DNA of 64,000 nt from Methanolobus sp. WCC4 (GTDB lineage: Archaea > Halobacteriota > Methanosarcinia > Methanosarcinales > Methanosarcinaceae), in assembly GCF_038022665.1 (NCBI RefSeq), contig NZ_CP150629.1:1966480-2030479 (forward strand), read 5' to 3'. The position numbers and the translations under genes were made by a program. The notes beneath the pieces are model-generated. The model was given only the letters and a program-made list of their open reading frames with translations, had not been told where the DNA came from and did not search any database. Of this stretch, positions 3,502 to 48,233 are shown one piece after another; positions within the stretch are counted from its first letter, which is position 1, and each line of letters opens with the position of its first letter.

Positions 3502-3560
3502 AAGCCGGACAACGTGGACAGGTTCAATTGTTCGCACGGTCCGGCTTTGCTTTTTTCTTT
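3502..3560 (+). terminator. Hairpin plus T-run terminator after lon
   Basis: AAGCCGGAC (3502-3510) pairs perfectly with GTCCGGCTT (3539-3547). An inner CGTG/CACG pairing extends the stem, and TGCTTTTTTCTTT follows. This has the form of a bacterial intrinsic terminator, at the convergent junction between lon and the CDF gene. Confidence 0.75.
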
Positions 3561-3603
3561 GCTTTATATCTACCATCTTTACAGACCCTTTCTTTCAGTT
3601 CCT

Positions 3604-4506: not shown

Positions 4507-4556
4507 TGCTGTTAAATCTTCTGTTCTTTAGGAGGAAAGGACTTTATCAGATCGGT

Positions 4557-6843: not shown

Positions 6844-6894
6844 TACATTTTCACATGAATGTTTGAAAAACAGGAATAGACTTGAGATCCAAGC

Positions 6895-7497: not shown

Positions 7498-7639
7498 TGT
7501 GGAGGCTCCTTGATAAGGATAGATGATTTTGCTTGTAGACAGAAGTCATATACCGAGGTTCTAGTATTTATTTTTTTCTAAAAATACCCAATTATTGTCT
7601 CTACTTAAAATCACATATCCCGGTTCATATCAAAAAACA

Positions 7640-21909: not shown

Positions 21910-21924
21910 ATGGGGGTCACTGAA

Positions 21925-23022
21925 ATGAAATTAAAATCAATTTGTTTACTTGTAGTTCTGACATTGATTACGATAGGAACTGCAAGTGCCACGATAACAA
22001 TCGAAGTCTATGATGGGAACAACTGGCAGCTGTTCGGAGAGGAGGAGTTTGAAAGTCAGTCATATCCTGATCATCGATACACTACAAAAATGATAGCATT
22101 GCCTTTTGCTACTACAGAAGTTCGTTTGACACAGAGCGGAACTGACACTGCTCATTTAGATGGGGCACTTCTTAATGGGAAAGTTCCCCTCAGCGTTATG
22201 GATAAAAGTATTAACACTGAACTGAACGCTGCTAAGCTTGCACAGGCAGACTACGATGTAATAGATGCAGCGTCACGTACGATCGAAATTTCTTGGTCCG
22301 ATTCGGGAACATGTCTGGTTCTAACGGGTATTGAAGAAGACTTATTTGGTGTCCCATTTTTGTGGCCCCTGGAAGGTTATGAATATACACTTGGTGGACC
22401 AGAAACATTTTCTCAGTATTTAGTTCCAGCCTCAAGTCATCCTGCAAGTACATACTATGCAACATTTTCAGCTACATCTGAAGAATTGGTCGTTGATCTG
22501 GATGCCACAGGAGATAACACTCTGGACCTTGATGGAGATTGGGCAGAACTTCATATAAGCACCCCGGATGGTGTTAAGAAATTCAGAATAAGCAATGCTA
22601 TGAAAGACTGGGGAACAAGTACTTTTGAATACACAAACAGAGTAAACTGGGAACATAAAACATACCAGTTCAAAATCCCATTTGAGGAAATAGGTAAATC
22701 CCAGGGGGATAGCATACAGTTCCAGATAAGTTATTATGGAACGTCAACAGGCCATGAGAATGATGCAGATTCGGATGGATGGGATGATGTTGATGACAAC
22801 TGTCCATTTGTATCCAACCCGGGCCAAGAGGATGAGGATAAAGACGGTGTAGGAGATGTCTGCGATATTTGTGAAGGGTTTGATGACTCAATTGATTCAG
22901 ATGGGGATGGAGTACCGGACGGTTGCGATAGTAACGGAGTGATTCCAGAGTTCCCGACCATTGTACTTCCTGTAGTTGCAATACTGGGTCTGGCATTCAT
23001 ATTCAAGAGGAGAATGGAGTAG
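21925..23022 (+). CDS. PEF-CTERM surface protein with thrombospondin type-3 calcium repeats
   Basis: 365 aa from the ATG at 21925 (GGGGG upstream; an ATG at 21910 is also in frame). The signal peptide ends at about A-S-A. A beta-rich middle is followed by D-S-D-G-W-D-D-V-D-D-N-C-P and D-E-D-K-D-G-V-G-D-V-C-D-I-C, thrombospondin type-3 calcium-binding repeats. The C-terminus is I-P-E-F-P-T-I-V-L-P-V-V-A, a hydrophobic segment and K-R-R-M-E. This PEF-CTERM tripartite signal is processed by an archaeosortase and anchors the protein outside the cell. It is first of three such genes in a row. A role in adhesion or cell cover is inferred. Confidence 0.92.
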   Translation: MKLKSICLLVVLTLITIGTASATITIEVYDGNNWQLFGEEEFESQSYPDHRYTTKMIALPFATTEVRLTQSGTDTAHLDGALLNGKVPLSVMDKSINTELNAAKLAQADYDVIDAASRTIEISWSDSGTCLVLTGIEEDLFGVPFLWPLEGYEYTLGGPETFSQYLVPASSHPASTYYATFSATSEELVVDLDATGDNTLDLDGDWAELHISTPDGVKKFRISNAMKDWGTSTFEYTNRVNWEHKTYQFKIPFEEIGKSQGDSIQFQISYYGTSTGHENDADSDGWDDVDDNCPFVSNPGQEDEDKDGVGDVCDICEGFDDSIDSDGDGVPDGCDSNGVIPEFPTIVLPVVAILGLAFIFKRRME

Positions 23023-23047
23023 TTTGTTTGATCATGGGGGAATTAAA

Positions 23048-23512
23048 ATGAGTATTAAACAAAATATGATATTCTATATGGGCGTGGCCTTGATACTTCT
23101 AATGATATTTACAGGGAATGCTGCTGCCAATGGAGAGGCATTGTACAATATAATTCTAACTCAAGACACTGATACTAACGAAGTTGGAACATCTCATACT
23201 GTTACAGCAACTTTGTACTATGCAGGTAATAATGCAGGAGAGGATTGGGGTGTGACATTTGAAGTATATGGGTTCAATCCCCAGACTAGTGGTACCTACT
23301 ATACGGATGGAAATGGACAGGCATCTTTCACATACACGGGAAATAATGCTGGTGTCGATACCATTGTTGCGGTGTCCAATGAGTTCGGAACATCTAATAC
23401 ACTTACAAAAACATGGACTCCCAGGGAAGAAATACCTGAGTTCCCGACAATTGCACTACCTGTAATTGCAGTTATTGGTATTGCATTTGTGCTAATGAGG
23501 CGAAGGGAATGA
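23048..23512 (+). CDS. PEF-CTERM surface protein with one Ig-like domain
   Basis: 154 aa from the ATG at 23048; ATGGGGGAATTAAA precedes it. A signal peptide (about 1-28) leads to one Ig-like domain with N-E-V-G-T-S-H-T-V-T-A-T-L and Y-T-D-G-N-G-Q-A-S-F-T-Y-T-G, the pattern of Big_1-like domains. The C-terminus I-P-E-F-P-T-I-A-L-P-V-I-A with R-R-R-E is a PEF-CTERM signal. The casposon-borne protein at 47162-47881 has the same domain, interrupted by a collagen-like insert, so the two are paralogues. It lies 25 bases after the preceding surface gene and is probably cotranscribed. Confidence 0.9.
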   Translation: MSIKQNMIFYMGVALILLMIFTGNAAANGEALYNIILTQDTDTNEVGTSHTVTATLYYAGNNAGEDWGVTFEVYGFNPQTSGTYYTDGNGQASFTYTGNNAGVDTIVAVSNEFGTSNTLTKTWTPREEIPEFPTIALPVIAVIGIAFVLMRRRE

Positions 23513-23536
23513 TTTCTTTAATTGTGGGGAATATGT

Positions 23537-24064
23537 ATGGGAATCAAACAAAATATGATACTTTCCATTTTTATTTTTCTGTCAGTTTTGTTACTGCTTA
23601 TAGGAAATGCCACTGCCGAGAACATAGGGGATCTTGTATGGGAAGATATGAATCGTAATGGCATACAGGATGCAGGTGAACCTGGCATTGAAGGTGTATC
23701 AGTGGAGCTTCATTATAATAGCACCGGATCACTGGCTTATTCTACTACAACAGTTTCCAATGGATACTATCGTTTTGATATAGACCACGGAGAAGCCTGT
23801 AATGAAGAATTCTATGTGAAATTCATCTCTCCTTCCGGCTGGGTGTTCACCACTCCCCATGCAGGAGCAGATGATACATTGGATAGTGATGCAAATCCTT
23901 CAAGTGGAGAAACTGATAGTTTCGGGAATCTCTGTGATACAAATGACTATACACGGGATGCGGGCCTCGTCCGTGAGGAAAAAATACCAGAGTTCCCGAC
24001 AATTGCACTCCCAGTAGCTGCAATACTGGGTCTGGCCTTCTTCTTCAAGCGCAGGAAGCAATAG
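23537..24064 (+). CDS. PEF-CTERM surface protein with SdrD B-like domain
   Basis: 175 aa from the ATG at 23537 with GTGGGGA upstream. A signal peptide (1-28) is followed by G-D-L-V-W-E-D-M-N-R-N-G-I-Q-D-A-G-E-P-G-I-E-G-V, the calcium-binding SdrD B-like domain found in surface adhesins, which includes Y-Y-R-F-D-I and D-D-T-L-D-S-D-A-N-P. It ends I-P-E-F-P-T-I-A-L-P-V-A-A-I-L-G and K-R-R-K-Q, a PEF-CTERM signal. It is third in the surface-gene run and followed by a terminator hairpin. Confidence 0.92.
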   Translation: MGIKQNMILSIFIFLSVLLLLIGNATAENIGDLVWEDMNRNGIQDAGEPGIEGVSVELHYNSTGSLAYSTTTVSNGYYRFDIDHGEACNEEFYVKFISPSGWVFTTPHAGADDTLDSDANPSSGETDSFGNLCDTNDYTRDAGLVREEKIPEFPTIALPVAAILGLAFFFKRRKQ

Positions 24065-29919: not shown

Positions 29920-29964
29920 TAATTCCAGATGAATTTTATTTTGAATCATGGATTGATTCGAGCC

Positions 29965-30095
29965 GGAGAGCAACAGGAGCAGAGGGCATGGTTAATGCTA
30001 TGCTTAACTATGTATGCTCTCCTTGAAGCTGAATGCCTAAGAGCCTTTAATATAGCAGGTCTTGATGCTCATGTTGGATTCTTACATGAGATGAA
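29965..30095 (+). pseudogene. cas1 (casposase) fragment, middle part
   Basis: Translation in two frames gives A-x-G-A-E-G-M-V-N-A-M-L-N-Y, then (after one frameshift) Y-A-L-L-E-A-E-C-L-R-A-F-N-I-A-G-L-D-A-H-V-G-F-L-H-E-M. This matches residues about 195-235 of the intact casposon Cas1. The frameshift lies at about 30012. The match stops abruptly at H-E-M, and the next Cas1 segment is found 3.3 kb away at 33391. It is a diverged, dead copy, roughly 70% identical in DNA by eye. Confidence 0.85.
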
Positions 30096-30316
30096 TCCTG
30101 GTTTTCATTGTTTGTCTGTTCTTTCTTATTCAGGAAAGATGAAACAGTTTTCTGGATGAATGCTATTTCGTCAAGTGAGAAATACATGAAGACAGTCTCA
30201 CCAGTATGACGGTTGTATTTCCTGATACGTAACCATCTGTCAGAATAAGAGCTTATACGGGTGTAATTTTCACTATTACAGTGCATAAACTCCTTTTCGT
30301 TATCACATATCTCCAT
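30047..30316 (-). CDS. Small hypothetical protein, 89 aa
   Basis: A short charged protein starting M-E-I-C-D-N-E-K-E-F. It has a TATATAAC promoter-like element upstream at about 30345-30355 and an ATG preceded by little ribosome-binding signal. The C-terminal third runs antisense through the cas1 relic, so this end may be a read-through tail. I do not recognise a family. The core R-W-L-R-I-R-K-Y-N-R-H-T-G-E-T is arginine-rich with no evident domain. Gene status is uncertain. Confidence 0.35.
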   Translation of the reverse strand: MEICDNEKEFMHCNSENYTRISSYSDRWLRIRKYNRHTGETVFMYFSLDEIAFIQKTVSSFLNKKEQTNNENQDSSHVRIQHEHQDLLY

Positions 30317-33378: not shown

Positions 33379-33390
33379 ACTGGTCCAGGC

Positions 33391-33545
33391 TACAATCTGC
33401 AAGAGCCATTCAGATTCCTTTTTGATATGTCTGTAATCAGCCTTATTGAGTCCAATTGAGGATAATACGGACTTTTCAGGACTGAGAGCTGATTCACTCA
33501 GGCTCAACCTTCAGGAGCTAAGAAGGTTACTGAGGACTTTTCACG
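33391..33545 (+). pseudogene. cas1 (casposase) fragment, later part
   Basis: Frame from 33391 reads Y-N-L-Q-E-P-F-R-F-L-F-D-M-S-V-I-S-L-I-E-S-N then a stop. After it, Q-P-S-G-A-K-K-V-T-E-D-F in the same frame matches R-P-S-G-A-K-K-L-T-E-E-F of the intact casposase. Together they cover Cas1 residues about 244-295. The segment begins almost exactly where the 29965-30095 fragment stops, so both derive from one cas1 copy that was split by a 3.3-kb insertion or rearrangement. Confidence 0.85.
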
Positions 33546-35448: not shown

Positions 35449-35670
35449 CTACTCAGCCATATGAACTTTTTTAGAAATAATGAATCTTTCATCTGCTGTA
35501 ACGTAATCCCATAACCCTAAAAGTAAGGTTAGAGTAGAGTACATACTAAATAAATAAAGGACAGTAACCTTAACAGGTTGCTTCCTTATCCTACATTCAC
35601 ACCTTCCTCCATAGTGAGCACTCATTATTTTTCCACGAATTAAAGGCGATAGAATAAGATCCAACGACAT
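35449..35670 (-). pseudogene. Casposon PolB fragment (palm region)
   Basis: The 73-aa minus-strand frame contains H-Y-G-G-R-C-E-C-R-I-R-K-Q-P-V-K-V-T and then L-F-S-M-Y-S-T-L-T-L-L-L-G-L-W. These match Y-Y-G-G-R-C-E-C-R-N-R-K...D-F-T-S-M-Y-P-T-V of the intact casposon polymerase (residues about 290-340). The catalytic aspartate of motif A is replaced (L-Y-L-F-S instead of L-D-F-T-S) and the proline of S-M-Y-P is lost. It is a dead remnant inside the 390-base gap 35373-35762; nothing else is seen in that gap. Confidence 0.85.
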
Positions 35671-36797: not shown

Positions 36798-37583
36798 ATG
36801 AAGAAACCATTGCTGGATGTTGTATTTAGTTCTAGAAAAAGAAGAGATACACTTATACTGTTGCAAGAAGCCCCTCAGGAAATGGATTATCTTCTTAAGT
36901 CACTGGATACAAACAGACAGGCTTTACTACCCCAAGTTAAGATTTTGGAAAAACATTATCTTGTTACTAAATCTGATGATGTTTATGAGTTAACTAAAAT
37001 TGGTAAACTAATTGTTGATGAAGTGAAGCCTTTGTTGGACACAGTAAGTGTCTTTGATTCTGACATTGAATACTGGGGAACCCATGACTTGAATTTTATT
37101 CCCCCATACCTTTTAAAGAGGCTTCATGAGCTTTCTCCATGTAAGGTGATCTCTAAAATCTCTCCTGCCCAGCTATATGAACCAAGTGAGAATGTTATCG
37201 AAAAAGCAAAGCATTCTAAAGTTCAGACATCTGTAACCACATTTCTTTTTCCCAACTTTGCATCGATACTTAAGGACTTCACTAAAAACGGAGTTAAGAT
37301 GCGTTTGATAGTTACCCAAAAACTCCTTTCCAAAATAAGAGATGAGATGGAGGAGATAAGATTCCTATTAAATAATGGTAATCATGAAGTATTCCTGTAC
37401 TCCAAAGAAATGAATTTTGCATCTTTTGGTACTAACGATTTTTGCTTTATGGCGAGGGCATTAACTAAAAAAGGAGAGTACGATATGAAATACATAATGT
37501 CTTGCGAACCTTCTGCAATTCAGTGGGGAAATGAACTATTCGAATATTACCTGAAAGATTCCATTCCGATATCTGATGTATGA
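36798..37583 (+). CDS. Winged-helix regulator with FilR1 (DUF1724) domain
   Basis: 261 aa. N-terminal winged helix (about 1-80): R-R-D-T-L-I-L-L-Q-E-A-P-Q-E-M, L-D-T-N-R-Q-A-L-L-P-Q-V-K, Y-E-L-T-K-I-G-K-L-I. The C-terminal ~170 residues (F-D-S-D-I-E-Y-W-G-T-H-D-L-N-F-I-P-P-Y-L and later E-V-F-L-Y-S) are the FilR1/DUF1724 effector domain common in methanogens. It regulates an unknown target; the family includes the filament/methanogenesis regulator FilR1. The ATG at 36798 has GATGTGAAGTGA before it. Casposon relics lie just downstream. Confidence 0.87.
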   Translation: MKKPLLDVVFSSRKRRDTLILLQEAPQEMDYLLKSLDTNRQALLPQVKILEKHYLVTKSDDVYELTKIGKLIVDEVKPLLDTVSVFDSDIEYWGTHDLNFIPPYLLKRLHELSPCKVISKISPAQLYEPSENVIEKAKHSKVQTSVTTFLFPNFASILKDFTKNGVKMRLIVTQKLLSKIRDEMEEIRFLLNNGNHEVFLYSKEMNFASFGTNDFCFMARALTKKGEYDMKYIMSCEPSAIQWGNELFEYYLKDSIPISDV

Positions 37584-37634
37584 TGTTTTTCGAAGTATCA
37601 TACATTGTATATTTTTCACATGTGATTGGATTGT

Positions 37635-38279
37635 AAACCTAATACTTATTTTATCTATCTACTTGGACATTACAATGACCATGCAGTTATCTCTAACCTT
37701 ACAGTATCAACTGGAAATATTCTGATACGCTTCAAGAAAATGAACGAAGGTAATGAATTTTCTGAACAAATCAAGCCTTTTAATTTCATGTTTGTTGGTA
37801 GTGGTGCAACAATCAATGAGGATGGGGAAAAGGTCAAGCCTGTTGCTCCTTACAATAATAATCCACAGGTTGCTATTGAGCAAGAGTTCATAGACTACAA
37901 TACAGGAAATGAGCTACAAGGAAGGGAATACTGGAAGCCATTAAGTGATGTGTTTCTTGATTACATAGACCATCCTGAAGCCAAATTTGAAGGAGACATA
38001 GGAGTACTGCAAAGGAGACATCTTACTCCTACTGGATGCGTGTATATTGGTAAGGAAGCCAACAAGGTTGAAATGCAGGAACTTGAGAGCAATACTATTG
38101 AGACGTATCATGATATTGAAAAGATAAGAGAGTATGTACTCAATCTTACTCCTGCTGAAGCTAGGAAAATAGGAATAAAATATAGGAGTACTCTTAATAA
38201 ATTGAAGGAAAGGGTAAGAGAAGGGTATTTTAATATGAATACGAAGGAGATGAGGAAAGTATTATCCACAAAAATCTAA
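37635..38279 (+). pseudogene. Chimeric casposon relic: HTH-protein piece fused to PolB C-terminus
   Basis: Y-F-I-Y-L-L-G-H-Y-N-D-H-A-V-I at the start matches H-F-I-Y-L-L-G-H-Y-N-D-Y-A-V-I of the wHTH protein at 45025-45900. From L-T-V-S-T-G-N onward it matches the PolB C-terminus (about residue 708 to the end), including K-P-F-N-F, K-F-E-G-D-I-G, L-Q-R-R-H, Y-I-G-K-E-A-N and T-K-E-M-R-K. In the intact element these genes are on opposite strands, so a rearrangement joined them in one frame, within A-V-I. It is not expected to be active. Confidence 0.85.
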
Positions 38280-38301: not shown

Positions 38302-38700
38302 TTATGCCACGACACTAAAAGTACCATCACGACTGTATGAGTAACTGGTACCAATATATGTTACCACATGCCAGCGATAATCATAACCCGGTGGGAATAA
38401 TGCTTTATCATATTCGTAATTTGATACCGTTACATATTCAGTATGTTGTATGGGCACCCAATTTTCTTGACCCGATTCTGAATACCATATACCAATTGTG
38501 TAAGAATCTGCATTTTTAACATCAGTCCAATCAAAGGTCAAAGTATCTCCGAATGAGCTATATGATATTGTTTTTGTAGGAAACAGTAACCTTGCTTTTG
38601 GAACCTTCTTTTCACCAGGTACAGCTTCTGCTACAGATACGAGCACTAACGAAAGTGCCAGAAGTACACCTATTAATAAGTAAATCTTTTGTTTGTTCAT
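38302..38700 (-). CDS. Secreted fibronectin-III-like protein
   Basis: 132 aa. A signal peptide (about 1-27, ending in A-E-A) precedes a single beta-sandwich with S-Y-S-S-F-G-D-T-L-T-F-D-W-T-D-V-K-N, A-D-S-Y-T-I-G-I-W-Y-S and Y-D-Y-R-W-H-V-V-T-Y, typical of fibronectin type III-like domains. There is no C-terminal sorting signal, so it may be released or bound to the cell surface. It lies between the chimeric casposon relic and the decayed terminal repeat, the same relative place that the PEF-CTERM cargo holds in the intact casposon. Confidence 0.72.
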   Translation of the reverse strand: MNKQKIYLLIGVLLALSLVLVSVAEAVPGEKKVPKARLLFPTKTISYSSFGDTLTFDWTDVKNADSYTIGIWYSESGQENWVPIQHTEYVTVSNYEYDKALFPPGYDYRWHVVTYIGTSYSYSRDGTFSVVA

Positions 38701-39121: not shown

Positions 39122-39135
39122 GAAGCGCAGGTGCG
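39122..39135. repeat. Target-site duplication, left copy
   Basis: GAAGCGCAGGTGCG, identical to 48140-48153. The 14-bp length is that of known casposon target duplications. Confidence 0.95.
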
Positions 39136-39165
39136 GGGTAATAGTAATAGCCAAAAAACGCAACG
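39136..39165. repeat. Casposon left terminal inverted repeat
   Basis: Begins GGGTAATAGTAATAGCC and ends CGCAACG. It pairs with 48110-48139 inverted, with a single G/A mismatch at position 15. Confidence 0.97.
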
Positions 39166-39311: not shown

Positions 39312-40997
39312 TTATTCTACATCATCGTTTTCAGGCGGAGTTCTTTCTGGAAAAAAGAAATTACGCAAACGGGGTGGCAAATCTAGTGTTTGAGCGTTTT
39401 CAACTTCTTTATATATTTTTATGAGTATTTGTATTGCTATCAATAAACCTACGACGTCGTTACCAACGATTCCAAAAAAAGAAGAAATTAAAGCAAGAAG
39501 GCCTAAAATGATTCCTCCCCAAACCGTGACTGTTGGAATATACCTTGCCATTACTTTTTCTATCGAACCAATATTTCGTCTGAATCCAGGAATTTGATAG
39601 CCAGAATTAAATATTTTACGAGCAGTTGGTCTTGCTCCAATACCTCTTGTTTCAACCCAAAAAAGAGAGAACAATACACACCCTCCAACAAGGAATACAG
39701 CATTAATAAATATTTTAATAATTAACCCACTTATATCTCCTTCATTAAACATAAGCATTGGAATCCATTCTGAGGCACCACTTAATGGTTGTAAATATTT
39801 AAAAAATACAGGTAAAGACTCCACCCCTATGTTACCCCTTAAAGGATGCCAATTTGGTACTACATGTATACTAATTTCACGATTATAAAGAAAAGAAAAA
39901 AATGAAAATAAGAATATTCGCAGACTTTCCACTAGTGCAAGAGGAATTGAACTAGCATAGATTAATCTAACTGGGAACCTACCACGTGCCCCTCTAACTG
40001 CTGAGTGTGCTAAGGGTATTTCAATTTTAATAGAAAATATGTAAATATATATAAAGAACATTATAATGGTTCCAACCAATGGGATAATTTTACTAGTTGC
40101 CACAAAATACTTCAATTCATTTTGCTTCATAAGCAGGCCGTTTTCCAAAACTAAAGAATATATTCTTGGAAATGTTCCTAAGGGCAAGCCATCTATTATT
40201 TTAGGATTGAATAAATCAAAAAAGATTGAAATCGAAACACCCGCAATGATAAACCAACCAACACCATTACCAATACCCCATTCATTAATGATATCAATAA
40301 AAAATTCAACAAGAATAGCACCAACAACTAATTGAGCAACTAAAAGCACAAGCATAGAAAAGTCACTAATTCCTAATGAGGCAGCCAAGTCTAAATTTGG
40401 TTTTATTTGAGTAAAGGTGACAAAAAAAATTGCTTGAACCACTGTAAAGATTAAGAAGCTTGATTTCGATAATTCTTTAAAATAATATTCATCTGCTGGG
40501 TTAGACATATCTAATTTAATGTAATTATTAGCAACTAAAGCTTCAAGAATAAATATTTCACCAATTAATGGGAAAATTCCTAATGTCAATAAAGATCCAA
40601 ATGAACCCCCTATCAAATTACGAAAAGGTTCTAAATAATCAGTCGATTCACTGGACAAACCAAAAAGAGGAACTTCTGATAATAATAAATAAATAATAAG
40701 AACACTGATTGTCCACATAGCTTTTTTATTAAGTCTCACGTGACCTTCTGGGGACGAAATTCGTGGATAGTATCGTGAAATGTATGGTGAAATAAATTCT
40801 AAAAACATTCCTAAATATTTAAGTAACAAATCTAAAGGATACGATAAAACCTTACTAATTTTGATAATACATTTTATTATTAGCGATAATGTAAGCCTTA
40901 GTATATCAAAAAAATAAACATAAATATACACTAAAATAACATATAGAGTAATGATTACAGTTAATGTGAGTATACTGAAGAATAGAAAATAAAACAT
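39312..40997 (-). CDS. SecY-like protein translocase subunit (casposon cargo)
   Basis: About 561 aa from the ATG at 40997. A TTG at 41021 adds eight residues, but an AAATATAAAAG TATA box at about 41035-41045 places transcription near the ATG. Roughly the first 60-90 residues are an added hydrophobic region with two or three segments. Then the SecY core follows: G-G-S-F-G-S-L-L-T-L-G-I-F-P, I-N-E-W-G-I-G-N-G-V-G-W-F-I, I-P-L-A-H-S...R-G-R-F-P-V-R-L-I-Y-A-S-S-I-P, and V-E-T-R-G-I-G-A-R-P-T-A. Q-I-P-G-F-R-R and R-Y-I-P-T-V-T-V close the C5/TM10 region. It is clearly archaeal-SecY-like but divergent. No SecE or Sec61beta gene accompanies it. A dedicated translocon inside a casposon is, to my knowledge, not described. 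Confidence 0.9.
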   Translation of the reverse strand: MFYFLFFSILTLTVIITLYVILVYIYVYFFDILRLTLSLIIKCIIKISKVLSYPLDLLLKYLGMFLEFISPYISRYYPRISSPEGHVRLNKKAMWTISVLIIYLLLSEVPLFGLSSESTDYLEPFRNLIGGSFGSLLTLGIFPLIGEIFILEALVANNYIKLDMSNPADEYYFKELSKSSFLIFTVVQAIFFVTFTQIKPNLDLAASLGISDFSMLVLLVAQLVVGAILVEFFIDIINEWGIGNGVGWFIIAGVSISIFFDLFNPKIIDGLPLGTFPRIYSLVLENGLLMKQNELKYFVATSKIIPLVGTIIMFFIYIYIFSIKIEIPLAHSAVRGARGRFPVRLIYASSIPLALVESLRIFLFSFFSFLYNREISIHVVPNWHPLRGNIGVESLPVFFKYLQPLSGASEWIPMLMFNEGDISGLIIKIFINAVFLVGGCVLFSLFWVETRGIGARPTARKIFNSGYQIPGFRRNIGSIEKVMARYIPTVTVWGGIILGLLALISSFFGIVGNDVVGLLIAIQILIKIYKEVENAQTLDLPPRLRNFFFPERTPPENDDVE

Positions 40998-41140
40998 ATA
41001 ATCATGTAAAAAAAGATGCAATCATTAATAAACTTTTATATTTGTTCAAACGTATATAGGAGACTGCGTAGAATGCATCCTTTGATTCAAAGTAGTCACC
41101 GTAATCATTTTCAGGCGGTTTACGATAAAAATAGTAAGCA

Positions 41141-43798
41141 TCAAAATACACTTACTAATTTCCTCACCTCCTTTGTCCAGAAATTGAACTTCCCACCACT
41201 CAAAATCCTGTCCTTCATCCTCTTGAGAGTGCTCCTCTCCATAACTCCATATCCCCTTGCTTCCTCTGGAGTCATAGCCAGTATCATTTGCTTGATACCT
41301 TCCTCATCAATGAAGGTCTGTGCTCTCTGAAGCTCTAATTCCTCTTCATCAATGTTGTTGGCTTCCTTTCCAATGTAAAGGATACCATCCGCATGAATGT
41401 GTCTCCTTTCCAGAAGTCCAATATCACCCTCAAACTTATGTTCTGGGTGCTCTGCATACTGCAATATGGTTTTACTCAATGACTTGAAATAGTGTGACCC
41501 TTGCATGATTTCACCAGTTTCATAGTCTATGAATGGTTCATGAACTATCTTTTGTGGATTGTCACAAAAAGGAGCAAGTGGTTTTATCGCTCTACCATTC
41601 TCCTCAACAGCCTGAAATCCCACCAGACAGAAGTTGAAAGGTTTGATCATCTCCTTCCATGATTTGCCTTTATTGAGCTTCTTGAACCTGTTCCATACAT
41701 TAGGAGTGCTAACAGCAAGCTTTGAGATAGCATACATATTGCTGTATTTTTCCACAATATCTCTGGAACTGATCATATCATATTCTAATTGCAAAAGGTC
41801 TTCCCATATTTCCTCATGCCAATCCCCTTTTCCATCCTTTGAGAATGGATTTGTCAGGTGCCCTAATCCATGCAATTTGAAATCCTTGAATATGATTTTA
41901 TCTTTCCTGAATTTATACAATGGATAGCGTTTAGATGAGATTCCATAAAACCAGTAATCCACCTTTTCAGGCTTTAGCAGTGGAATATCTAGGTTATAGG
42001 GATTTAGAGGTTGGAAATACTCTGTAATTTCCTCTGCATATTCAGGAGGAACAAAGATAGAGTCAGTATCCATATAGGAGTGTCTAGCCCCTAATTCCTC
42101 TACTTTTGCCTCTGCCATTGCCAAAAATAGCTTTGAACCAGAGGTAATCATAACAGCCAGTAGAGGATGATAGAAGTTACCTGGCTTTTCATACCTATTC
42201 TGTGAGGTACTGAAAGAATCGAGCCCATAAACCTCTATGTCACTTTTCCTGTCCTCTGGATTAAGCTCAATGAATATCCCGTAGCTCATAGCATTAACAA
42301 GAATCTTGATTGCCTGTGCTCTGCTCTTTAGCTGTTGATACTCTGGACTTTCGGAATCAATATTCTTCATTTCAATCTTGATCTTCTGTCTTTCCTCGAC
42401 AAGAACCTGAACAAGATTATCCTTTTCAGGATCAATATCAATTCCAAGTATCTGTGACTTTCTTAATCCTTCCTGAATGCCTACTGGAACAAATCTGACA
42501 GCTTCAACAATCTCCGGAACTTTGCCAGTGAGAATTACAGAAGCTATGACATCAGGTAATGCATACCATAGTTCATGCGCTGAGGACAGATAATTGACAC
42601 CAACATTAAATGAACCATTATCTTCCTTGTAATCCATTCTCACAGGTAGTATATCACCATCGGGACGAAGCTTAACCATTACAACAAAGTCTTTCCAATT
42701 ATCCGCATTTTGCAGATACCCAAGATTAATTATTTCCAGTAGCTCTCTGATTTCCCCTGTTACATTCTGTGTTTCAATGTAGTCTGCAATCATAAGATTC
42801 CACAGACCCATTACCATTGTAACCGTTGGATACATGCTTGTAAAATCAAGAGTTGTAACCTTTGTTGGAACTTTCCGATTTCTGCATTCACACCTACCAC
42901 CATAATATGAGGTCATTATCTGACCCTTCATATTATCAGGGAAATCAAAATTCTGCTCACTCAACGGTTTAATTCCCAACTGTTTCAAAGCGTATTTTCC
43001 AATTGATGCATTGCTGTATATCTTGGTTGGAGGAACATCAATATTGTAGAGATCAAGCTCCTTGATCAATCCCTCATATACATCAAAAGTGCTCTCTACA
43101 TCCTTTATCAGATAATCAAGATATCTCTTGGTGATAGTACCGTGTTTAATATCCTTCATCTTCTTGTGTCTTGTATCAAGTAATTCACAGGCTTTTGCGA
43201 GCGATATATGATTTTGTTGAAGCAAGACAGTTCCAAGGGTTTGAGCATCTAGGAAATGACCTGAAAAATAATCAGCTCCTTGATTGTACATTGTAGTGAA
43301 TTTGAAGCTGTTAGCGGCTCCAAGTTTCCTGATCACAACAGGAGGATTATGCTTTTTCTTGGAAAGTGTGAATGTGAATCCTCCTCTGTTCTTCCCTTTT
43401 GATGGATTACCAAACATTGCCAGTCTGCTTATATCAAAAGCAAGATTGAAGCCTACACAAAGTGATTTTAATCCAAAGACCTCTGGATAAAATACACCAT
43501 CTACAAACTCTTCATGGCGATATAACTCAATACAATGCTTTTCGGAATAATCTTTGAGAATCTTTACTTCTCGATCATTAAGCATTGATGGGTCATAGAA
43601 GAGTCCTTCATACTGAAGGTAACCTTCATGATATTTCTGGAAGAAACCAACCTTCATATTCTGATACTGATCTATTGTGGTTTCAGTATCGAAAACAAAT
43701 ACATCCTCATGCTTTAACTGGAGGTTACTGTTGTAAAACTGATTGGATTGGGAATCTTTAGCTTTAACAGTATATCCTCTTACAGCAATCTTGCTCAT
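41141..43798 (-). CDS. polB: Casposon family B DNA polymerase
   Basis: 885 aa. Exonuclease motifs: F-V-F-D-T-E-T (D37, E39), F-N-L-A-F-D (N118, D122) and Y-L-I-K-D (Y229, D233). Polymerase motifs: A, D-F-T-S-M-Y-P (D318); B, K-I-L-V-N-A-M-S-Y-G; C, Y-M-D-T-D-S near residue 557. All catalytic residues are present, so it should have synthesis and proofreading activity. It replicates the casposon in the self-synthesising transposon model. ATG at 43798 with GGAGGT nine bases upstream; the start overlaps the HNH stop by four bases (ATGA), so the genes are coupled. Two fragments of related polymerases lie at 35449 and 37635. Confidence 0.96.
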   Translation of the reverse strand: MSKIAVRGYTVKAKDSQSNQFYNSNLQLKHEDVFVFDTETTIDQYQNMKVGFFQKYHEGYLQYEGLFYDPSMLNDREVKILKDYSEKHCIELYRHEEFVDGVFYPEVFGLKSLCVGFNLAFDISRLAMFGNPSKGKNRGGFTFTLSKKKHNPPVVIRKLGAANSFKFTTMYNQGADYFSGHFLDAQTLGTVLLQQNHISLAKACELLDTRHKKMKDIKHGTITKRYLDYLIKDVESTFDVYEGLIKELDLYNIDVPPTKIYSNASIGKYALKQLGIKPLSEQNFDFPDNMKGQIMTSYYGGRCECRNRKVPTKVTTLDFTSMYPTVTMVMGLWNLMIADYIETQNVTGEIRELLEIINLGYLQNADNWKDFVVMVKLRPDGDILPVRMDYKEDNGSFNVGVNYLSSAHELWYALPDVIASVILTGKVPEIVEAVRFVPVGIQEGLRKSQILGIDIDPEKDNLVQVLVEERQKIKIEMKNIDSESPEYQQLKSRAQAIKILVNAMSYGIFIELNPEDRKSDIEVYGLDSFSTSQNRYEKPGNFYHPLLAVMITSGSKLFLAMAEAKVEELGARHSYMDTDSIFVPPEYAEEITEYFQPLNPYNLDIPLLKPEKVDYWFYGISSKRYPLYKFRKDKIIFKDFKLHGLGHLTNPFSKDGKGDWHEEIWEDLLQLEYDMISSRDIVEKYSNMYAISKLAVSTPNVWNRFKKLNKGKSWKEMIKPFNFCLVGFQAVEENGRAIKPLAPFCDNPQKIVHEPFIDYETGEIMQGSHYFKSLSKTILQYAEHPEHKFEGDIGLLERRHIHADGILYIGKEANNIDEEELELQRAQTFIDEEGIKQMILAMTPEEARGYGVMERSTLKRMKDRILSGGKFNFWTKEVRKLVSVF

Positions 43799-44124
43799 AT
43801 TAGATCAACCTCCAGACCTATCATACGAAGCTGCTTACCCATTCCTTCCAGTAACGCACCCATAGAAACAAGAATAAACCTTATGTTATCCTCACGTGAT
43901 GCAGTGCTTGCTCTTACCTTGCGGGGTAGTTTGTTTTGCTGTTTTGTTATTTTGAAATGACAGTTCTTGCATAGTGGAACGGTCTCTTCAGAATTGTTCC
44001 TTCCGTACACGTGGTGTAATTCTATCACATTAGGGTCATCTTCTGCACACTCGATACATCTAAGTGCTGTTTTTCCTTCTAATTTCTGTCTCTTAATACT
44101 TCTTTTTGATATTGATTTATCCAT
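43795..44124 (-). CDS. HNH endonuclease (casposon)
   Basis: 109 aa from the ATG at 44124, which has GAGGAGTGG upstream; a GTG nine bases earlier overlaps that site. The HNH core reads C-I-E-C, then E-L-H-H-V-Y-G-R-N, then L-C-K-N-C-H, a beta-beta-alpha metal finger with a C-x2-C pair on both sides. Basic flanks (K-R-S-I-K-R-Q-K at the N-terminus) would contact DNA. HNH nucleases recur in casposons with an unsettled role in DNA processing. It is translationally coupled to polB. Confidence 0.93.
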   Translation of the reverse strand: MDKSISKRSIKRQKLEGKTALRCIECAEDDPNVIELHHVYGRNNSEETVPLCKNCHFKITKQQNKLPRKVRASTASREDNIRFILVSMGALLEGMGKQLRMIGLEVDLI

Positions 44125-44139
44125 AGTTACCACTCCTCA

Positions 44140-44778
44140 TCATACATAGCGTTCTTGAAAATCATGCTCTACCTGTGCTTCATCAAGCTCGTAAAGTCGT
44201 TCTAATCGTGTTTCAAATGAATGTTCATTACCTTCAGCATCAACAAGTTTGATATTATCGAACTTTTTCAACCGAGATGTATCACCATCTTTTAGGGTTT
44301 TCTCGACTGCATCAAAGTATTCGTTAATCAGGTAACGGTCTTTGGAGCTTGTTGTTACTATCGTTGTATTGCCAGCGTTTCGGTCATAGAACCTCATTTC
44401 AGCCTGAATACTATCTATTTTTGTAACTTTCCATCTTCCATTCTCTTTGTACAGATAACGTCCTAGATTCTTGATCGCATCTTTGTTGCTCATTCCAAGC
44501 TTTTTTGTCATCTGCTCAAGACTTGCTCCTTTTCTCATAGCTCTCAAAATCTGGAAAGAACTACGTCTATCCGTCTTCTGAAGAGATGTCAGTGTTTCCC
44601 ATTTTGCTTTAGAAAGGTCATAATCACTTATTTTGAGGTCTCTGAGTTGCTTCAGGCTCTTGTCTGGAAACATCTTGTGTTTCCTGATGATCTCCTTTGC
44701 ATACCTGGTATCTCTGGGCATAGCTTTGAGCCATTGACCATAGGTTCTGAAATCCTTGGAGAATTCAGGTCTGGTCAC
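44140..44778 (-). CDS. Casposon helix-turn-helix protein
   Basis: 212 aa from a GTG at 44778 that overlaps the stop of the upstream 47-aa gene in the sequence GTGA. The N-terminal 75 residues are basic and helical (Y-G-Q-W-L-K-A-M-P-R-D-T-R-Y-A-K). A helix-turn-helix follows at about 85-115: G-A-S-L-E-Q-M-T-K-K-L-G-M-S-N-K-D-A-I-K-N-L-G-R-Y. An alpha/beta C-terminal part ends in an acidic helix. HTH proteins are a regular component of casposons; DNA binding is likely, the exact role is unknown. Next downstream is the HNH gene, six bases after the stop. Confidence 0.85.
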   Translation of the reverse strand: MTRPEFSKDFRTYGQWLKAMPRDTRYAKEIIRKHKMFPDKSLKQLRDLKISDYDLSKAKWETLTSLQKTDRRSSFQILRAMRKGASLEQMTKKLGMSNKDAIKNLGRYLYKENGRWKVTKIDSIQAEMRFYDRNAGNTTIVTTSSKDRYLINEYFDAVEKTLKDGDTSRLKKFDNIKLVDAEGNEHSFETRLERLYELDEAQVEHDFQERYV

Positions 44779-44918
44779 TTCTCAGCCTCCCAGAGTTTCA
44801 TTAGTGCTATCCTGACAACTTCAGCCTGAGAGCATCCAAAGTAATCTGACATCAATACGAGTTTCTCCTTTAGGTACGGAGATAGTGTGGTTAATATTCT
44901 TTCGCTTTTGGTGGTCAT
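44775..44918 (-). CDS. Ribbon-helix-helix (CopG/Arc-like) protein, 47 aa
   Basis: A 47-aa frame from the ATG at 44918: M-T-T-K-S-E-R-I-L-T-T-L-S-P-Y-L-K-E-K-L-V-L, then F-G-C-S-Q-A-E-V-V-R-I-A-L-M-K-L. The strand R-I-L-T-T-L and the two helices with S-Q-A-E-V-V-R-x-A form a classic RHH DNA-binding fold. It is first in the leftward operon, and its stop overlaps the next start by four bases. It probably represses the casposon's divergent promoter region. Short genes of this size are easily missed. Confidence 0.8.
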   Translation of the reverse strand: MTTKSERILTTLSPYLKEKLVLMSDYFGCSQAEVVRIALMKLWEAEK

Positions 44919-44991
44919 AATACGTCACCAATAACCACTATGCAACTCATAATATCTGTACAGAATATGAGTATAAGATTAGGTATAAATA

Positions 44992-45010
44992 TGATATAGT
45001 TCTTATATCA
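44992..45010. promoter_or_regulatory. Operator-like palindrome in the casposon divergent promoter
   Basis: TGATATA-GTTCT-TATATCA has 7-bp arms. It sits just downstream of the TATA box TATAAATA (44984-44991) and 14 bases before the ATG at 45025, so a bound repressor would block the rightward (wHTH-cas1) promoter. The RHH protein or the wHTH protein is the likely binder. Confidence 0.55.
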
Positions 45011-45024
45011 GCTAGGGTATAATT

Positions 45025-45900
45025 ATGTATAAAAAAGGGTTAGATTTTGACCAAGAAGTCAGACGTATATTATCCAATCAAGGCTATGTTAGAAGGTCGC
45101 AACTCATACAAAAACTCAAAAATAAGCATCGAGGGGATAGTGGGTATAGTGAAAAGAGTATCAATCGAAAGCTTGACAGTATGGTGAATAGAGGGATAGT
45201 ATCTAAGCTAAAAGGAGATGCTCTTAAAGAAGCAGGCATAACCGATGATGATGGGCGTTCTAGCTATTTTACCCTTAAGAAATCAGATGACATAAGGAGA
45301 CATATAGATTCAGTTATAGCTAATATCTCTTCAGATAATCCTATAAAACAAAAAATGGCGCTTAAAGAACTTGAAAGATATGAGAAACACTGTCTACTCA
45401 ATCCTGTCCAACTAGACATACTTATAGCCCAATTAGACACAGAAGACATAGACCTTATCGACAATATCCTGAGAATAGTCTATACATACATAGAAAAAAA
45501 GGAAATAGAACCCTATAACAGACAAGAAGTCATTAAGATGCTTAGAAGCCTATTGAACAAGTATCCTAAGCCATTACCACATGGATACAAGAACCTTAGA
45601 ACTCATTTTATCTATTTACTTGGTCACTACAATGATTATGCTGTTATTGAAAGGCTCAAAAAGGATGCTGAAGAGTTAGACAACCTTCATGAAATCCTCC
45701 ATGACTATGAGTCAAACTACACAGCCTTTGTAATCGAGGAACATAGGGAAGAACTCTATGAGTTTGAGGAAAAGCTAAGACTTGAAGGTATGGAAGAACC
45801 TGCTCAGTTCATTGCTCAGACAAGAGTTACAGCTATGATCCATCTTGAAATGTATGACGATCCTTTTAAGAAGAATAATGCTGCTGTGAGGGATTTCTAA
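45025..45900 (+). CDS. Casposon winged-helix protein upstream of cas1
   Basis: 291 aa. Residues 1-90 are a winged helix: Q-G-Y-V-R-R-S-Q-L-I-Q-K-L, S-E-K-S-I-N-R-K-L-D-S-M-V-N-R-G-I-V-S-K-L and the wing D-D-G-R-S-S-Y-F-T-L. The rest is all-helical with repeated leucine-rich helices and no recognised family; HEAT-like packing is possible. A fragment of a relative is fused into the relic at 37635. The stop and the cas1 start overlap by one base (TAATG), so the protein is coupled to the casposase and may assist or regulate integration. Confidence 0.8.
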   Translation: MYKKGLDFDQEVRRILSNQGYVRRSQLIQKLKNKHRGDSGYSEKSINRKLDSMVNRGIVSKLKGDALKEAGITDDDGRSSYFTLKKSDDIRRHIDSVIANISSDNPIKQKMALKELERYEKHCLLNPVQLDILIAQLDTEDIDLIDNILRIVYTYIEKKEIEPYNRQEVIKMLRSLLNKYPKPLPHGYKNLRTHFIYLLGHYNDYAVIERLKKDAEELDNLHEILHDYESNYTAFVIEEHREELYEFEEKLRLEGMEEPAQFIAQTRVTAMIHLEMYDDPFKKNNAAVRDF

Positions 45901-47105
45901 TGAAAATGATTCTCCTTAATGGTCATGGAATAGACACACGTGTAAATGGGTCTAAATTGCATATCAGGGATGGTAGACATACCACAGACATAGAACCAGA
46001 GAAGTATGTCTTTTCTCCCCAGAAAATAGACATAGACAATATAGTGATCTATGGTAAAAATGGAAATATGACCATTGATTCTATCAGATGGCTGATAAAA
46101 CATAATGTGCAGGTCACTATTCTTGATTGGGATGGTAAGCTTCTAACAACCATGCTTCCTCCTGAAAGTACTAATGTCAAAACCAAGTTCGCACAGTATC
46201 ACGCTTATGAGGATCAGGAAACAAGGTTAAAGCTTGCCAAGAAGTTCATTGAAGCCAAGTTTGATAAGACTCAGGTAGTTCTGGATTACCTGAAACAACG
46301 TTATCCTGATATTTACAACGAGTTTTCAAAGGACTCTTCAAAACTTGATGATGCAAATAACATCAAGGAAGTCATGGGTGTTGAGGGGGCTGTTGCTGTC
46401 TATTATTGGGGGCAGTTTGAAAAGTTCATTCCTGAGAAATATGAATTTGATGACCGTACAGGCAGGTACAAAACACGTCCTAGTGGTGCAGGTGATATGG
46501 TCAATTGTATGCTTAATTATGGCTATTCACTCCTTGAAGCAGAGTGTATGAGAACTATCAATGCTGTTGGTCTGGACGTTCATGTAGGCTTCCTGCATGA
46601 GATGGCATCAGGTAAGAACAGTTTAGCCTATGACCTGCAAGAGCCTTTCAGATTCCTTGTTGATCTAGCTGTAATTAACCTCATTGAGACTGACAGGATG
46701 GAAAAGAAGGACTTTATCAGGACTGATAATTACGCTCTCAGACTTAGACCAAGTGGAGCTAAGAAGCTTACAGAGGAGTTCCAGACTTGGATGAATAAGA
46801 AGGTAACTTATCAGGACAAATCAATGATGTGGAGCTATGTCCTTTTACTCAAAACAAGGGAATTGGCTCAATTCCTGAACGGTAAAAAGAGGAAAATTGA
46901 TTTTGTTACTCCCTCTTACGTGATTGAAAGACAGGATACTGATGAGATCAGGAAGAAGATATTGAGTATTTCTTATTCTGAATGGAAGGAGATGGGATTT
47001 TCTAAGGGTACTCTGCATTACATGAAGAAAAATGCAAAGGGAGATAAACCGTTTACTCTTAATTCTCATGTAAGGGAACGGTTGGAAATGTGGGAAAATT
47101 GTTGA
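45900..47105 (+). CDS. cas1: Casposase (Cas1 family integrase)
   Basis: 401 aa. A beta-rich N-terminal domain (1-90) is followed by the helical catalytic domain. Key residues: E162 in M-G-V-E-G-A-V-A, H233 in G-F-L-H-E-M and the acidic D245/E248 in Y-D-L-Q-E-P-F-R. The C-terminal ~60 residues hold a helix-turn-helix (E-W-K-E-M-G-F-S-K-G-T-L-H-Y-M), the extension that separates casposases from CRISPR Cas1. It joins casposon ends to the target and makes the 14-bp duplication. It overlaps the upstream wHTH gene by one base. No cas2 or repeats are nearby, so a CRISPR role is excluded. Confidence 0.97.
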   Translation: MKMILLNGHGIDTRVNGSKLHIRDGRHTTDIEPEKYVFSPQKIDIDNIVIYGKNGNMTIDSIRWLIKHNVQVTILDWDGKLLTTMLPPESTNVKTKFAQYHAYEDQETRLKLAKKFIEAKFDKTQVVLDYLKQRYPDIYNEFSKDSSKLDDANNIKEVMGVEGAVAVYYWGQFEKFIPEKYEFDDRTGRYKTRPSGAGDMVNCMLNYGYSLLEAECMRTINAVGLDVHVGFLHEMASGKNSLAYDLQEPFRFLVDLAVINLIETDRMEKKDFIRTDNYALRLRPSGAKKLTEEFQTWMNKKVTYQDKSMMWSYVLLLKTRELAQFLNGKKRKIDFVTPSYVIERQDTDEIRKKILSISYSEWKEMGFSKGTLHYMKKNAKGDKPFTLNSHVRERLEMWENC

Positions 47106-47150
47106 TGCTATAACTATACGAAATGTAGCAGAAAATTAAAAAGAAAAGTT

Positions 47151-47170
47151 AAGGAGTAAAATTACTCCTT
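47151..47170. terminator. Palindrome between convergent cas1 and PEF-CTERM genes
   Basis: AAGGAGTAAAATTACTCCTT is a perfect 20-bp palindrome; its right half covers the stop region of the PEF-CTERM gene. It may end transcription in both directions or be a repressor site. Confidence 0.5.
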
Positions 47171-47881
47171 TCTACGCTGGAATATGAATGCCAATCCGAT
47201 AATTGCAGCTATTGGGAGAGCAATTGTTGGGAATTCTGGGATGTCATTTTGTTCTTCCCATATTTTTTTGACTACATTAGATTCAACATCCCCGTCATCT
47301 AGGATTGCTGTGGCTTTGATATAATCAGTACCCGGTAAATTTCCTGTGTCTGTATATATGAACGTTGCTGTTCCATCTGTATTTGTATAATCCTCGCCAT
47401 GCTTTCCGACGTTTGGACCAGCAATGACCTCAAATTGAACGGTAATTCCCTCTATAGGTATGCTAATAGTTTCACCAGGGACAGCAGGCTCTCCAGGCTC
47501 ACCGGGTTCACCGGGTTCACCAGGGTCTTCACTAGGCTCTCCAGGCTCTCCAGGCTCACCGGGTTCACCGGGTTCACCAGGGTCTTCACTAGGCTCTCCA
47601 GGCTCTCCAGGCTCACCGGGTTCACCAGGCTCACCGGGTTCACCAGGGTCTTCACTAGGATCACCAGGTTCTTCACTAGGATCACCGCCAGTTTGATGCA
47701 TCATTACTGTTGCTGTAACTTCATGCTCGGTGCCTACTGTATTAGTAGCAATTATCGGAACAAGATCAACAGTGTAGTCTATCTCTACTGATACATCATT
47801 AGATGCTGCATTCCCCACAAACATTATTAGAAATATCAAGAATAATCCAATGCAAAGAACTATATCCCTTTTATATCTCAT
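47162..47881 (-). CDS. PEF-CTERM surface protein with collagen-like PGEP repeats (casposon cargo)
   Basis: 239 aa from the ATG at 47881, with GTGGGGAATTGAA before it, the same leader as chromosomal PEF-CTERM genes in this window. A signal peptide (1-28) is followed by an Ig-like domain that starts N-T-V-G-T-E-H-E-V-T-A-T-V and is interrupted by roughly 70 residues of D-P-G-E-P-G-E-P repeats. It resumes with G-I-T-V-Q-F-E-V-I-A-G-P-N and Y-T-N-T-D-G-T-A-T-F-I-Y-T. It ends I-P-E-F-P-T-I-A-L-P-I-A-A and Q-R-R-K-E, a PEF-CTERM signal. The host's archaeosortase could process it. It is a paralogue of 23048-23512, probably captured from the host. Confidence 0.9.
   Translation of the reverse strand: MRYKRDIVLCIGLFLIFLIMFVGNAASNDVSVEIDYTVDLVPIIATNTVGTEHEVTATVMMHQTGGDPSEEPGDPSEDPGEPGEPGEPGEPGEPGEPSEDPGEPGEPGEPGEPGEPSEDPGEPGEPGEPGEPAVPGETISIPIEGITVQFEVIAGPNVGKHGEDYTNTDGTATFIYTDTGNLPGTDYIKATAILDDGDVESNVVKKIWEEQNDIPEFPTIALPIAAIIGLAFIFQRRKE
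47483..47695 (-). repeat. Tandem PGEP/PSEDPGEP coding repeat
   Basis: Nine-base units (TCACCGGGT and CCAGGCTCT forms on the + strand) alternate with TCTTCACTAGG, encoding G-E-P and S-E-D-P-G-E-P blocks. The unit order is repeated three to four times with few changes, suggesting recent slippage expansion. Confidence 0.85.
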
Positions 47882-48109
47882 TTCAATTCCCCACAAATTC
47901 ACAGTGTAAACATGAATTTTTCTATTTACTGTATAGTTGCTTTACATTAACTATATTATTTGTGAAACTTAAATTCGAATCATTATTCAGAAAAAAGTTA
48001 ACAGTGTTATCATCGGTGACGTAAACTCAAGGAGCAAAACACAGATTCTTTTAAGCGACATTAGTAACTATTTTTGCAAAGTAACCTTCATTGTTGGTTT
48101 AAGGTAATG

Positions 48110-48139
48110 CGTTGCGTTTTTTGGTTATTACTATTACCC
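48110..48139. repeat. Casposon right terminal inverted repeat
   Basis: Starts CGTTGCGTTTTTTGG and ends ATTACCC, the inverted partner of 39136-39165 with one mismatch. Confidence 0.97.
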
Positions 48140-48153
48140 GAAGCGCAGGTGCG
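48140..48153. repeat. Target-site duplication, right copy
   Basis: GAAGCGCAGGTGCG, identical to 39122-39135. Its last four bases on the + strand (TGCG) are the 3' terminal CGC and discriminator A of the minus-strand tRNA-Leu gene, so the insertion rebuilds the tRNA end. Confidence 0.95.
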
Positions 48154-48233
48154 AGGGGAGGGATTTGAACCCTCGAAATCCTTCGATACTGGATCTTAAG
48201 TCCAGCGCCTTTGACCAGCTGGGCAACCCTCGC
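48150..48233 (-). tRNA. tRNA-Leu (anticodon UAA)
   Basis: The minus strand folds as a class II tRNA. The acceptor is GCGAGGG/CCCTCGC with discriminator A; the anticodon arm GGACT-TAA-GATCC has loop CTTAAGA; the variable arm is long (about TATCGAAGGATTTCGA); and the T arm is GAGGG-TTCAAAT-CCCTC. Anticodon TAA and a long variable arm give leucine. The 84 bases include the discriminator; CCA is not encoded. The casposon lies immediately downstream of the tRNA 3' end and leaves the tRNA intact. Confidence 0.96.

Follow-up and report, generated by a model that had tools for sequence, protein, structure and literature searches.

A PEF-CTERM surface protein gene at the end of a Methanolobus casposon quite probably represents a recurrent terminal cargo of Methanosarcinaceae casposons. 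Genes of this type are directed inward from inside the terminal inverted repeat (TIR), lie about 65 bp from cas1 or polB, and would keep their ends while the domain between them is swapped. The gene was analyzed in a window of 64,000 nucleotides of Methanolobus sp. WCC4, and the term window refers to this whole stretch. The features of the window and of the casposon regions compared with it are listed in Table 1.

Table 1. Features of the window (upper part) and arrangements at casposon ends in other regions (lower part, region's own numbering)
Feature	Position	Strand	Remarks
Chromosomal cluster, three PEF-CTERM genes	21910-24064	+	21910-23022, 23048-23512, 23522-24064; TIGR03024 in 3/3
Left target-site duplication (TSD) GAAGCGCAGGTGCG	39122-39135		14 nt; exact pair with 48140-48153
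Left TIR	39136-39165	+	30 nt; 97% complementary to 48110-48139
Second SecY, cargo at polB end	39312-41021	-	569 aa; PF00344 E 2.7e-43 and plug PF10559
Family B DNA polymerase PolB	41141-43798	-	PF00136 27.4 bits, cut-off 23; other casposon PolB ~41-90%
Small HNH-like protein	43795-44133	-	Kept beside PolB in casposons; CxxC, HH, N, H pattern by eye
Conserved casposon core protein, putative HTH type	44140-44778	-	Position conserved; no Pfam match over cut-off
Conserved core protein upstream of cas1	45025-45900	+	Position conserved, ~31-87%; no Pfam match over cut-off
Cas1 casposase	45900-47105	+	401 aa; PF01867 E 2.1e-69; PDB 6opm E 4.8e-182
PEF-CTERM surface protein	47162-47881	-	Signal peptide ~1-28, Ig-like half ~33-64, acidic P/G/E insert ~65-142, second Ig-like half ~146-208, PEF-CTERM 214-239
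Repeat encoding GEP/SEDP insert	47472-47668	-	57-bp unit, 2.7 copies, 96% matches
Putative promoter/leader common to casposon-borne and chromosomal PEF genes	47882-48012	-	~130 bp; blastn to L168, L209, L232, L234
Right TIR	48110-48139	-	97% complementary to left TIR; 25/25 in TIR scan
Right TSD GAAGCGCAGGTGCG	48140-48153		Overlaps tRNA-Leu 3' end
tRNA-Leu (TAA), integration target	48148-48233	-	ARAGORN
L232	TIR 41; PEF gene 388-879; Cas1 C-terminus 992-1126	+; +; -
L209	Cas1 remnant 6739-7041; PKD-PEF gene 7707-8165; TIR 8507	+; -; -
L168, first element	TIR 4267; PKD-PEF gene to 5008; Cas1 remnant from 5072	+; +; -
L168, neighbouring element	TIRs 1870 and 4251; DUF7507-PEF gene 2105-2638; PolB remnant from 2686	+ and -; +; -
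L236	TIR 2600; PEF gene 3744-4241; Cas1 remnant 4314-4412	+; +; -
L237	PolB remnant 3552-3671; DUF11-PEF gene 3731-4717; TIR 4960	+; -; -
L277	PolB remnant 675-858; PEF remnant 914-1111; TIR 2022	+; -; -	Found via leader search

The element around the gene is a family-2-type casposon of 9,004 bp in the 3' end of a tRNA-Leu gene. The gene had been predicted to be casposon-borne, and it was indeed found between 30-nt TIRs and a perfect 14-bp TSD. With up to two mismatches allowed, the TSD sequence occurs only at the two places in the window that are listed in Table 1 (0.12 expected). The Cas1 casposase has a C-terminal extension as in family 2: PF01867 matched residues 18-295 of 401, and the similarity to PDB 6opm, which we take to be the M. 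mazei casposase, spanned residues 1-399. PolB, as well as TIRs with a 14-bp TSD at a tRNA 3' end, are further family 2 features that were found. The protein upstream of cas1 occupies the same place as the HTH/HEAT-type protein of family 2 casposons. No HTH family scored over the Pfam cut-off in either of the two conserved core proteins, both of which are placed as in family 2, and Pfam yielded only weak unrelated matches, and no HNH match, for the small HNH-like protein.

A second TIR (21/25) was seen at 39121 on the reverse strand, where it abuts the left TSD. Because of this position, an older, decayed casposon lies in tandem to the left of the element, in the same target. A left TIR of the older element was searched for and not found. 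A PolB C-terminal remnant of the older casposon was seen at 37626-38279 on the forward strand (49% over 201 aa). Convergent with this remnant, at a distance of about 23 bp, is a gene for a secreted-looking protein without a PEF tail (38302-38700, reverse strand), and this layout is that of the PEF genes at polB ends. More casposon crumbs, Cas1 twice and PolB once, are present further left (29922-30117, 33388-33540, and 35491-35640), and a FilR1-type regulator (36798-37583, PF08350 80.1 bits) lies beside the old casposon remnant and has homologues in the regions L065, L076, and L078.

The open reading frame of the PEF-CTERM gene exists as predicted and encodes 239 aa when counted from the ATG at 47881; the GTG at 47902 would result in 246 aa. 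The N-terminus of the protein is hydrophobic and of the signal-peptide type. The assignment to the PEF-CTERM proteins was borne out by TIGR03024, which scored 41.2 bits for the casposon protein and 38.2 bits for the protein encoded at 23048-23512 (cut-off 23). The Ig-like match (Big_1) was weak, with E 0.03 for the casposon protein and E 3.4e-5 for the protein encoded at 23048-23512, both below the Pfam gathering score. An AlphaFold2 model obtained with a two-sequence input was poor (mean pLDDT 58, pTM 0.38), and thus the strand order alone was taken from it, i.e., two strands before the insert and five after it. Phage and plasmid records contained no match to the protein, and none was confirmed in viral contigs; the best matches fall within the Methanosarcinaceae, not in unrelated organisms.

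The casposase matched at E 1e-30 in 57 of the 111 genomes of the family, and 45 regions with an intact casposase gene and 80 with remnants were fetched. Thirty elements including that of the window were delimited, 22 by TIR and TSD and eight more (for L083 the TSD agreed at only 9/14). The three nearest casposons (Cas1 96, 93, and 90%) have the core 41127-45170 in common with the window element and carry other cargo at both ends, where the TIR alone (30-35 nt) matches. PEF genes were found at the ends of other casposons of Methanolobus and Methanococcoides (Table 1). In L168 (two elements), L209, L232, L237, and L277, the PEF gene has a TIR on its outer side that faces inward, and in L236 such a TIR is located 1.1 kb further out. 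The layout in these regions is thus TIR, leader, inward PEF gene, and then cas1 or polB, which converges with the PEF gene by its 3' end. In L177/L248 a PKD-PEF gene is located beside a Cas1 remnant but on its other side, and these cases were kept as ambiguous. L200 was dropped as a chance case, with the PEF gene 4.5 kb from a Cas1 remnant, and L249/L087 of Methanococcoides vulcani was left out, since no PEF tail was detected; there, the casposase is followed by a convergent, frameshifted gene whose secreted product has an Ig-like domain and, as judged by eye, NosD-like repeats.

PEF cargo is a minority state among casposons, because the other PEF cases are decayed elements and only one of the 46 regions with an intact casposase, that of the window, contains a PEF gene. 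Casposon cargo of the secreted type is not limited to PEF proteins. Based on a crude hydrophobicity rule, a secreted or membrane-anchored-looking N-terminus was found in 12 of 135 cargo ORFs, which are distributed over 10 of the 30 elements. In the casposon of L081, which belongs to another genus, a PGF-pre-PGF protein (7298-8524, TIGR04213 191.8 bits) is encoded beside a large secreted-looking protein.

The leader upstream of the PEF gene was recovered by a leave-one-out nhmmer search at 48012-47883 with E 3e-11. With the leader model R1, which was applied to 16 genomes, all ten matches at E <=1.3e-5 were located upstream of PEF genes (seven were in the model already and three were new), and the weaker matches (E >=2.9e-4) were mostly located away from PEF genes. 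Leader-bearing genes without a casposon trace are those in L233 and L234 and one in G023:C10. The original prediction had likened the leader to those of the chromosomal PEF genes. This was found to be true for the head gene of the cluster at 21910 (leave-one-out E 4e-6), but not for the genes at 23048 and 23522; the respective sequences are GTGGGGAATTGAA at the casposon gene, ATGGGGGAATTAAA at 23048, and GTGGGGAATATGT at 23522. Leader, signal peptide, and PEF tail of the casposon gene seem to be those of a sub-lineage of host PEF genes.

The alignment of L168 with the window revealed which parts of the gene are kept. The cas1 end, the spacer, and the PEF codons matched with 78% (46657-47245), and the signal codons, the leader, and the TIR matched with 68.8% (47804-48139, E 3.6e-26). 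The middle domains are unrelated (E 6.5), with a PKD domain in L168 (PF18911 46.5 bits) and the Ig-like domain in the window. L209 showed the same pattern of kept ends (81% at 47162-47246 and 69.6% at 47809-48012). Because L168 and L209 match the window at both ends and not in the middle, the frame of the gene is homologous in place, and an exchange of the displayed domain (Ig, PKD, or DUF11-type) has occurred. Its natural means would be homologous recombination in the conserved sequences on either side.

That PEF genes are host genes that by chance flank casposon insertions or remnants, and are not cargo, is highly improbable. PEF genes are common, with 120 in the nine complete Methanolobus genomes that served as test sample, and a clear outer TIR is missing at some remnants (L177/L248). 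However, for the window gene this explanation is already contradicted by the TIRs that enclose it and by the perfect 14-bp TSD, and the TIRs outside the PEF genes in L168 (twice), L209, L232, L237, and L277 also speak against it. The spacing was compared with chance for the casposon ends that reach the C-terminus, i.e., 72 of 103 Cas1 rows and 30 of 48 PolB rows. With a limit of 200 bp, five convergent pairs of PEF and cas1 or polB were found, each with a spacing of 63-73 bp. When the PEF positions were rotated 4,000 times, the mean was 0.048 and five pairs were never reached; this test was post hoc, as the five pairs had been noticed earlier and the 200-bp limit was set afterwards. With wider limits, five pairs versus 0.23 by rotation were observed at 1,000 bp and six versus 0.34 at 1,500 bp. 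When the genome of the window was left out, four pairs remained versus 0.048, a number that was reached in 0 of 10,000 rotations. No obvious enrichment of PEF genes was seen in casposon neighbourhoods at large (five PEF genes in four of 125 regions, about as many as in a rough estimate based on length). Only the tight placement at the casposon ends stands out, and not the wider neighbourhood.

The original prediction went further and proposed that the casposon had captured the gene at 23048-23512 of the same genome and had gained a collagen-like insert. The quoted motifs are present in both proteins (NTVGTEHEVTAT/NEVGTSHTVTAT, YTNTDGTATFIYT/YTDGNGQASFTYT, and IPEFPTIALP), and the homology to the chromosomal protein was verified by BLASTP for both Ig halves, with 46% over 92 aa (E 3e-19) and 38% over 80 aa (E 4e-12). 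The Ig halves still matched after removal of the signal peptide and the PEF tail (E 5e-6 and 1.6e-5). Furthermore, the gene that heads this chromosomal cluster has the leader in common with the casposon gene, and AU tests on the Ig-domain tree rejected neither the pairing of the window protein with 23048 (p 0.495) nor that with L232. Nevertheless, a recent capture of this gene is quite unlikely. Over 150 nt of upstream sequence, the casposon gene was most similar to casposon-borne copies (z 16.9 for L168a, 15.2 for L232, and 13.6 for L209), followed by Methanolobus genes without casposon traces (13.2 for L234 and 12.4 for L233), whereas in the chromosomal cluster z was 9.4 at 21910, about 0 at 23048, and 0.3 at 23522. 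Also for the signal codons the similarity was lower for 23048 (z 8.8) than for L232 (23.5), L168a (18.4), and L209 (15.7). The closest full-length protein is that of L232/L042 from Methanococcoides with 52%, versus 42% for 23048-23512, and the Ig halves scored 52.4 and 26.9 bits with L232 versus 28.9 and 27.3 bits with 23048. The L232 gene itself has a casposon TIR on one side and the remnant of a casposase on the other. No TIR of at least 19/25 was found near the chromosomal PEF cluster.

The collagen-like character ascribed to the insert is weak. The Pfam Collagen model was borderline, at 27.3 bits and thus 0.1 bit above the cut-off of 27.2, and GEP (Gly-X-Pro) triplets are present. In contrast to the long uninterrupted Gly-X-Y of the Collagen family (PF01391), the longest GEP runs have just six, five, and four triplets and are separated by SEDP, which shifts the Gly-X-Y register. 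Of the 82 insert residues examined, 26 are acidic and none is basic, and the antisense strand of the repeat also scored as collagen, with nearly the same value (28.2 versus 29.0 bits). An antisense open frame at 47460-47696 on the forward strand reads as (GSP)n. A better collagen-type protein of the same genome, 332712, has longer unbroken G-X-Y. That the insert folds as a collagen triple helix and makes a stalk is therefore most doubtful, and we would call it an acidic Pro/Gly/Glu spacer instead. Because the 57-bp unit is repeated 2.7 times with 96% matches, the repeat has probably expanded recently and in frame. In a search of the family with the whole protein (E 1e-12), the insert was covered, among the matches listed, by the gene itself alone. 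Protein 332712 (L297 1318-2136, G000:C1) is secreted-looking and has, as judged by eye, a tail-collar-like C-terminus. Further methanogen proteins of this collagen type, likewise secreted-looking, with long G-X-Y and, by eye, such a C-terminus, were seen in L293, L295, and L296.

The cargo at the opposite end of the element raises a further explanation, namely that SecY and the PEF protein are an accessory export pair with a dedicated channel for the acidic repeat protein. In Gram-positive bacteria, accessory SecY2 systems combine an additional SecY and a repeat-rich surface protein with SecA2 and glycosylation genes. The combination of a second SecY with a repeat-rich surface protein is alike, but the casposon element contains neither SecA2, or any SecA-like gene, nor glycosylation genes, and its SecY is of the archaeal type. 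The casposon SecY is full-length, with the SecY as well as the plug domain, and could be aligned with the solved SecY 3mp7 over query residues 81-557 (E 3.6e-64). It is diverged, with 42% to the chromosomal SecY (G000:C1:1156840), and has about the same distance to the SecYs of the family. Among the 111 genomes, no other had a second SecY that matched over its full length (G068 and G108 have two, in separate pieces), and no SecY was found in the casposon loci L061-L105, L149-L228, and L252-L272. The location of both genes on one element is in favor of an export pair. On the other hand, the other PEF-bearing casposon loci are without SecY, although they are decayed, and host PEF genes elsewhere do without a second SecY. 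An accessory export pair is thus rather unlikely, and a role of the casposon SecY in the service of the PEF protein is conjecture.

When viral contigs were scanned for relatives of Cas1, SecY, or the PEF protein, nothing was obtained, and phage records contained no match to SecY. Plasmid relatives of the SecY are haloarchaeal, 30-35% identical, and occur in other contexts. In the haloarchaeal plasmids of L229 and L231, an extra secY is located near a DUF106 gene and an rdfA/SMC-like pair; because DUF106 is presumably an insertase-type protein, these sets may be accessory insertion modules. In L230, a plasmid of Natronorubrum bangense, a long ribosomal-protein operon ends in secY.

For the PEF gene as recurrent terminal cargo, the following series of events is proposed. 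Cas1, probably together with the HNH-like protein and PolB, would transfer the casposon to its target, the tRNA-Leu 3' end, as indicated by TSD and TIR. The PEF gene would be transcribed from its own PEF-type promoter, in view of the conserved leader, and the signal peptide predicts export of the protein by the Sec pathway. The PEF tail points to processing by an archaeosortase and subsequent anchoring. The genome has one archaeosortase-family gene (TIGR04178 63.6 bits, cut-off 23), which scored 64.4 bits with the ArtC model versus a cut-off of 100. The Ig-like domain and its long acidic Pro/Gly/Glu loop would then be exposed, and the host surface would gain a variable protein. An altered surface contact, i.e., virus adsorption or aggregation, is a guess at the role of the displayed protein, and it is worth considering because a Methanosarcina virus is reported in PMC9694453, as far as the available text goes, to attach at the surface layer. 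Casposons seem to ferry and to remodel surface proteins of their hosts, because related copies at casposon ends share the same switch-on region and differ in the middle. It is a tentative possibility that casposons are shuttles and remodelling sites of the PEF-CTERM repertoire, with domains swapped between element and chromosome by virtue of the homologous promoter/signal and PEF ends, and with the element's own SecY as matched exporter.

Casposons have been studied as ancestors of CRISPR adaptation. In comparison to PEF-CTERM proteins (TIGR03024), the window protein is alike in having a signal peptide, at least one beta-sandwich domain, and a PEF tail to which a hydrophobic segment and a basic terminus are joined, but, unlike the usual members, it is carried by a transposon and has an acidic repeat inserted into an Ig-like domain loop. 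The element shares with the family 2 casposons, in the portions of PMC4046053 available, Cas1, PolB, the HNH-like protein, two more conserved proteins, TIRs, TSD, a tRNA target, and lineage-specific cargo. It differs from them as described there in that its terminal cargo is a secreted anchored protein and SecY, and section 10 of that article states that casposon genes of inferable function are virtually all involved in DNA manipulation. Like the M. mazei casposon MetMaz-C1, the element has a tRNA-Leu-related 14-bp target and a homologous casposase, but the movement of MetMaz-C1 was shown in vivo, while that of the window element is deduced from the sequence; surface cargo is not mentioned in the available parts of the MetMaz-C1 description (PMC10359463). 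In the main texts of the literature searched, as far as accessible, no recognisable report of surface-protein or SecY cargo on casposons was found, and, judging from these searches, a second SecY carried by a casposon is unreported.

In Methanosarcina, casposon movement in vivo has been reported (excerpts of PMC10359463), and virus challenge is reported to raise cas1-solo transcription (excerpts of PMC9694453); the surface-cargo idea is testable in this genus. A surface cargo that recurs, keeps its promoter, and can exchange its domains would mean that casposons bring the host a concrete benefit, or a cost, and it would also offer a route for the spread of archaeal surface proteins. If casposons were indeed shuttles with their own SecY as exporter, transposition would alter what the cell shows to viruses and to its neighbours.
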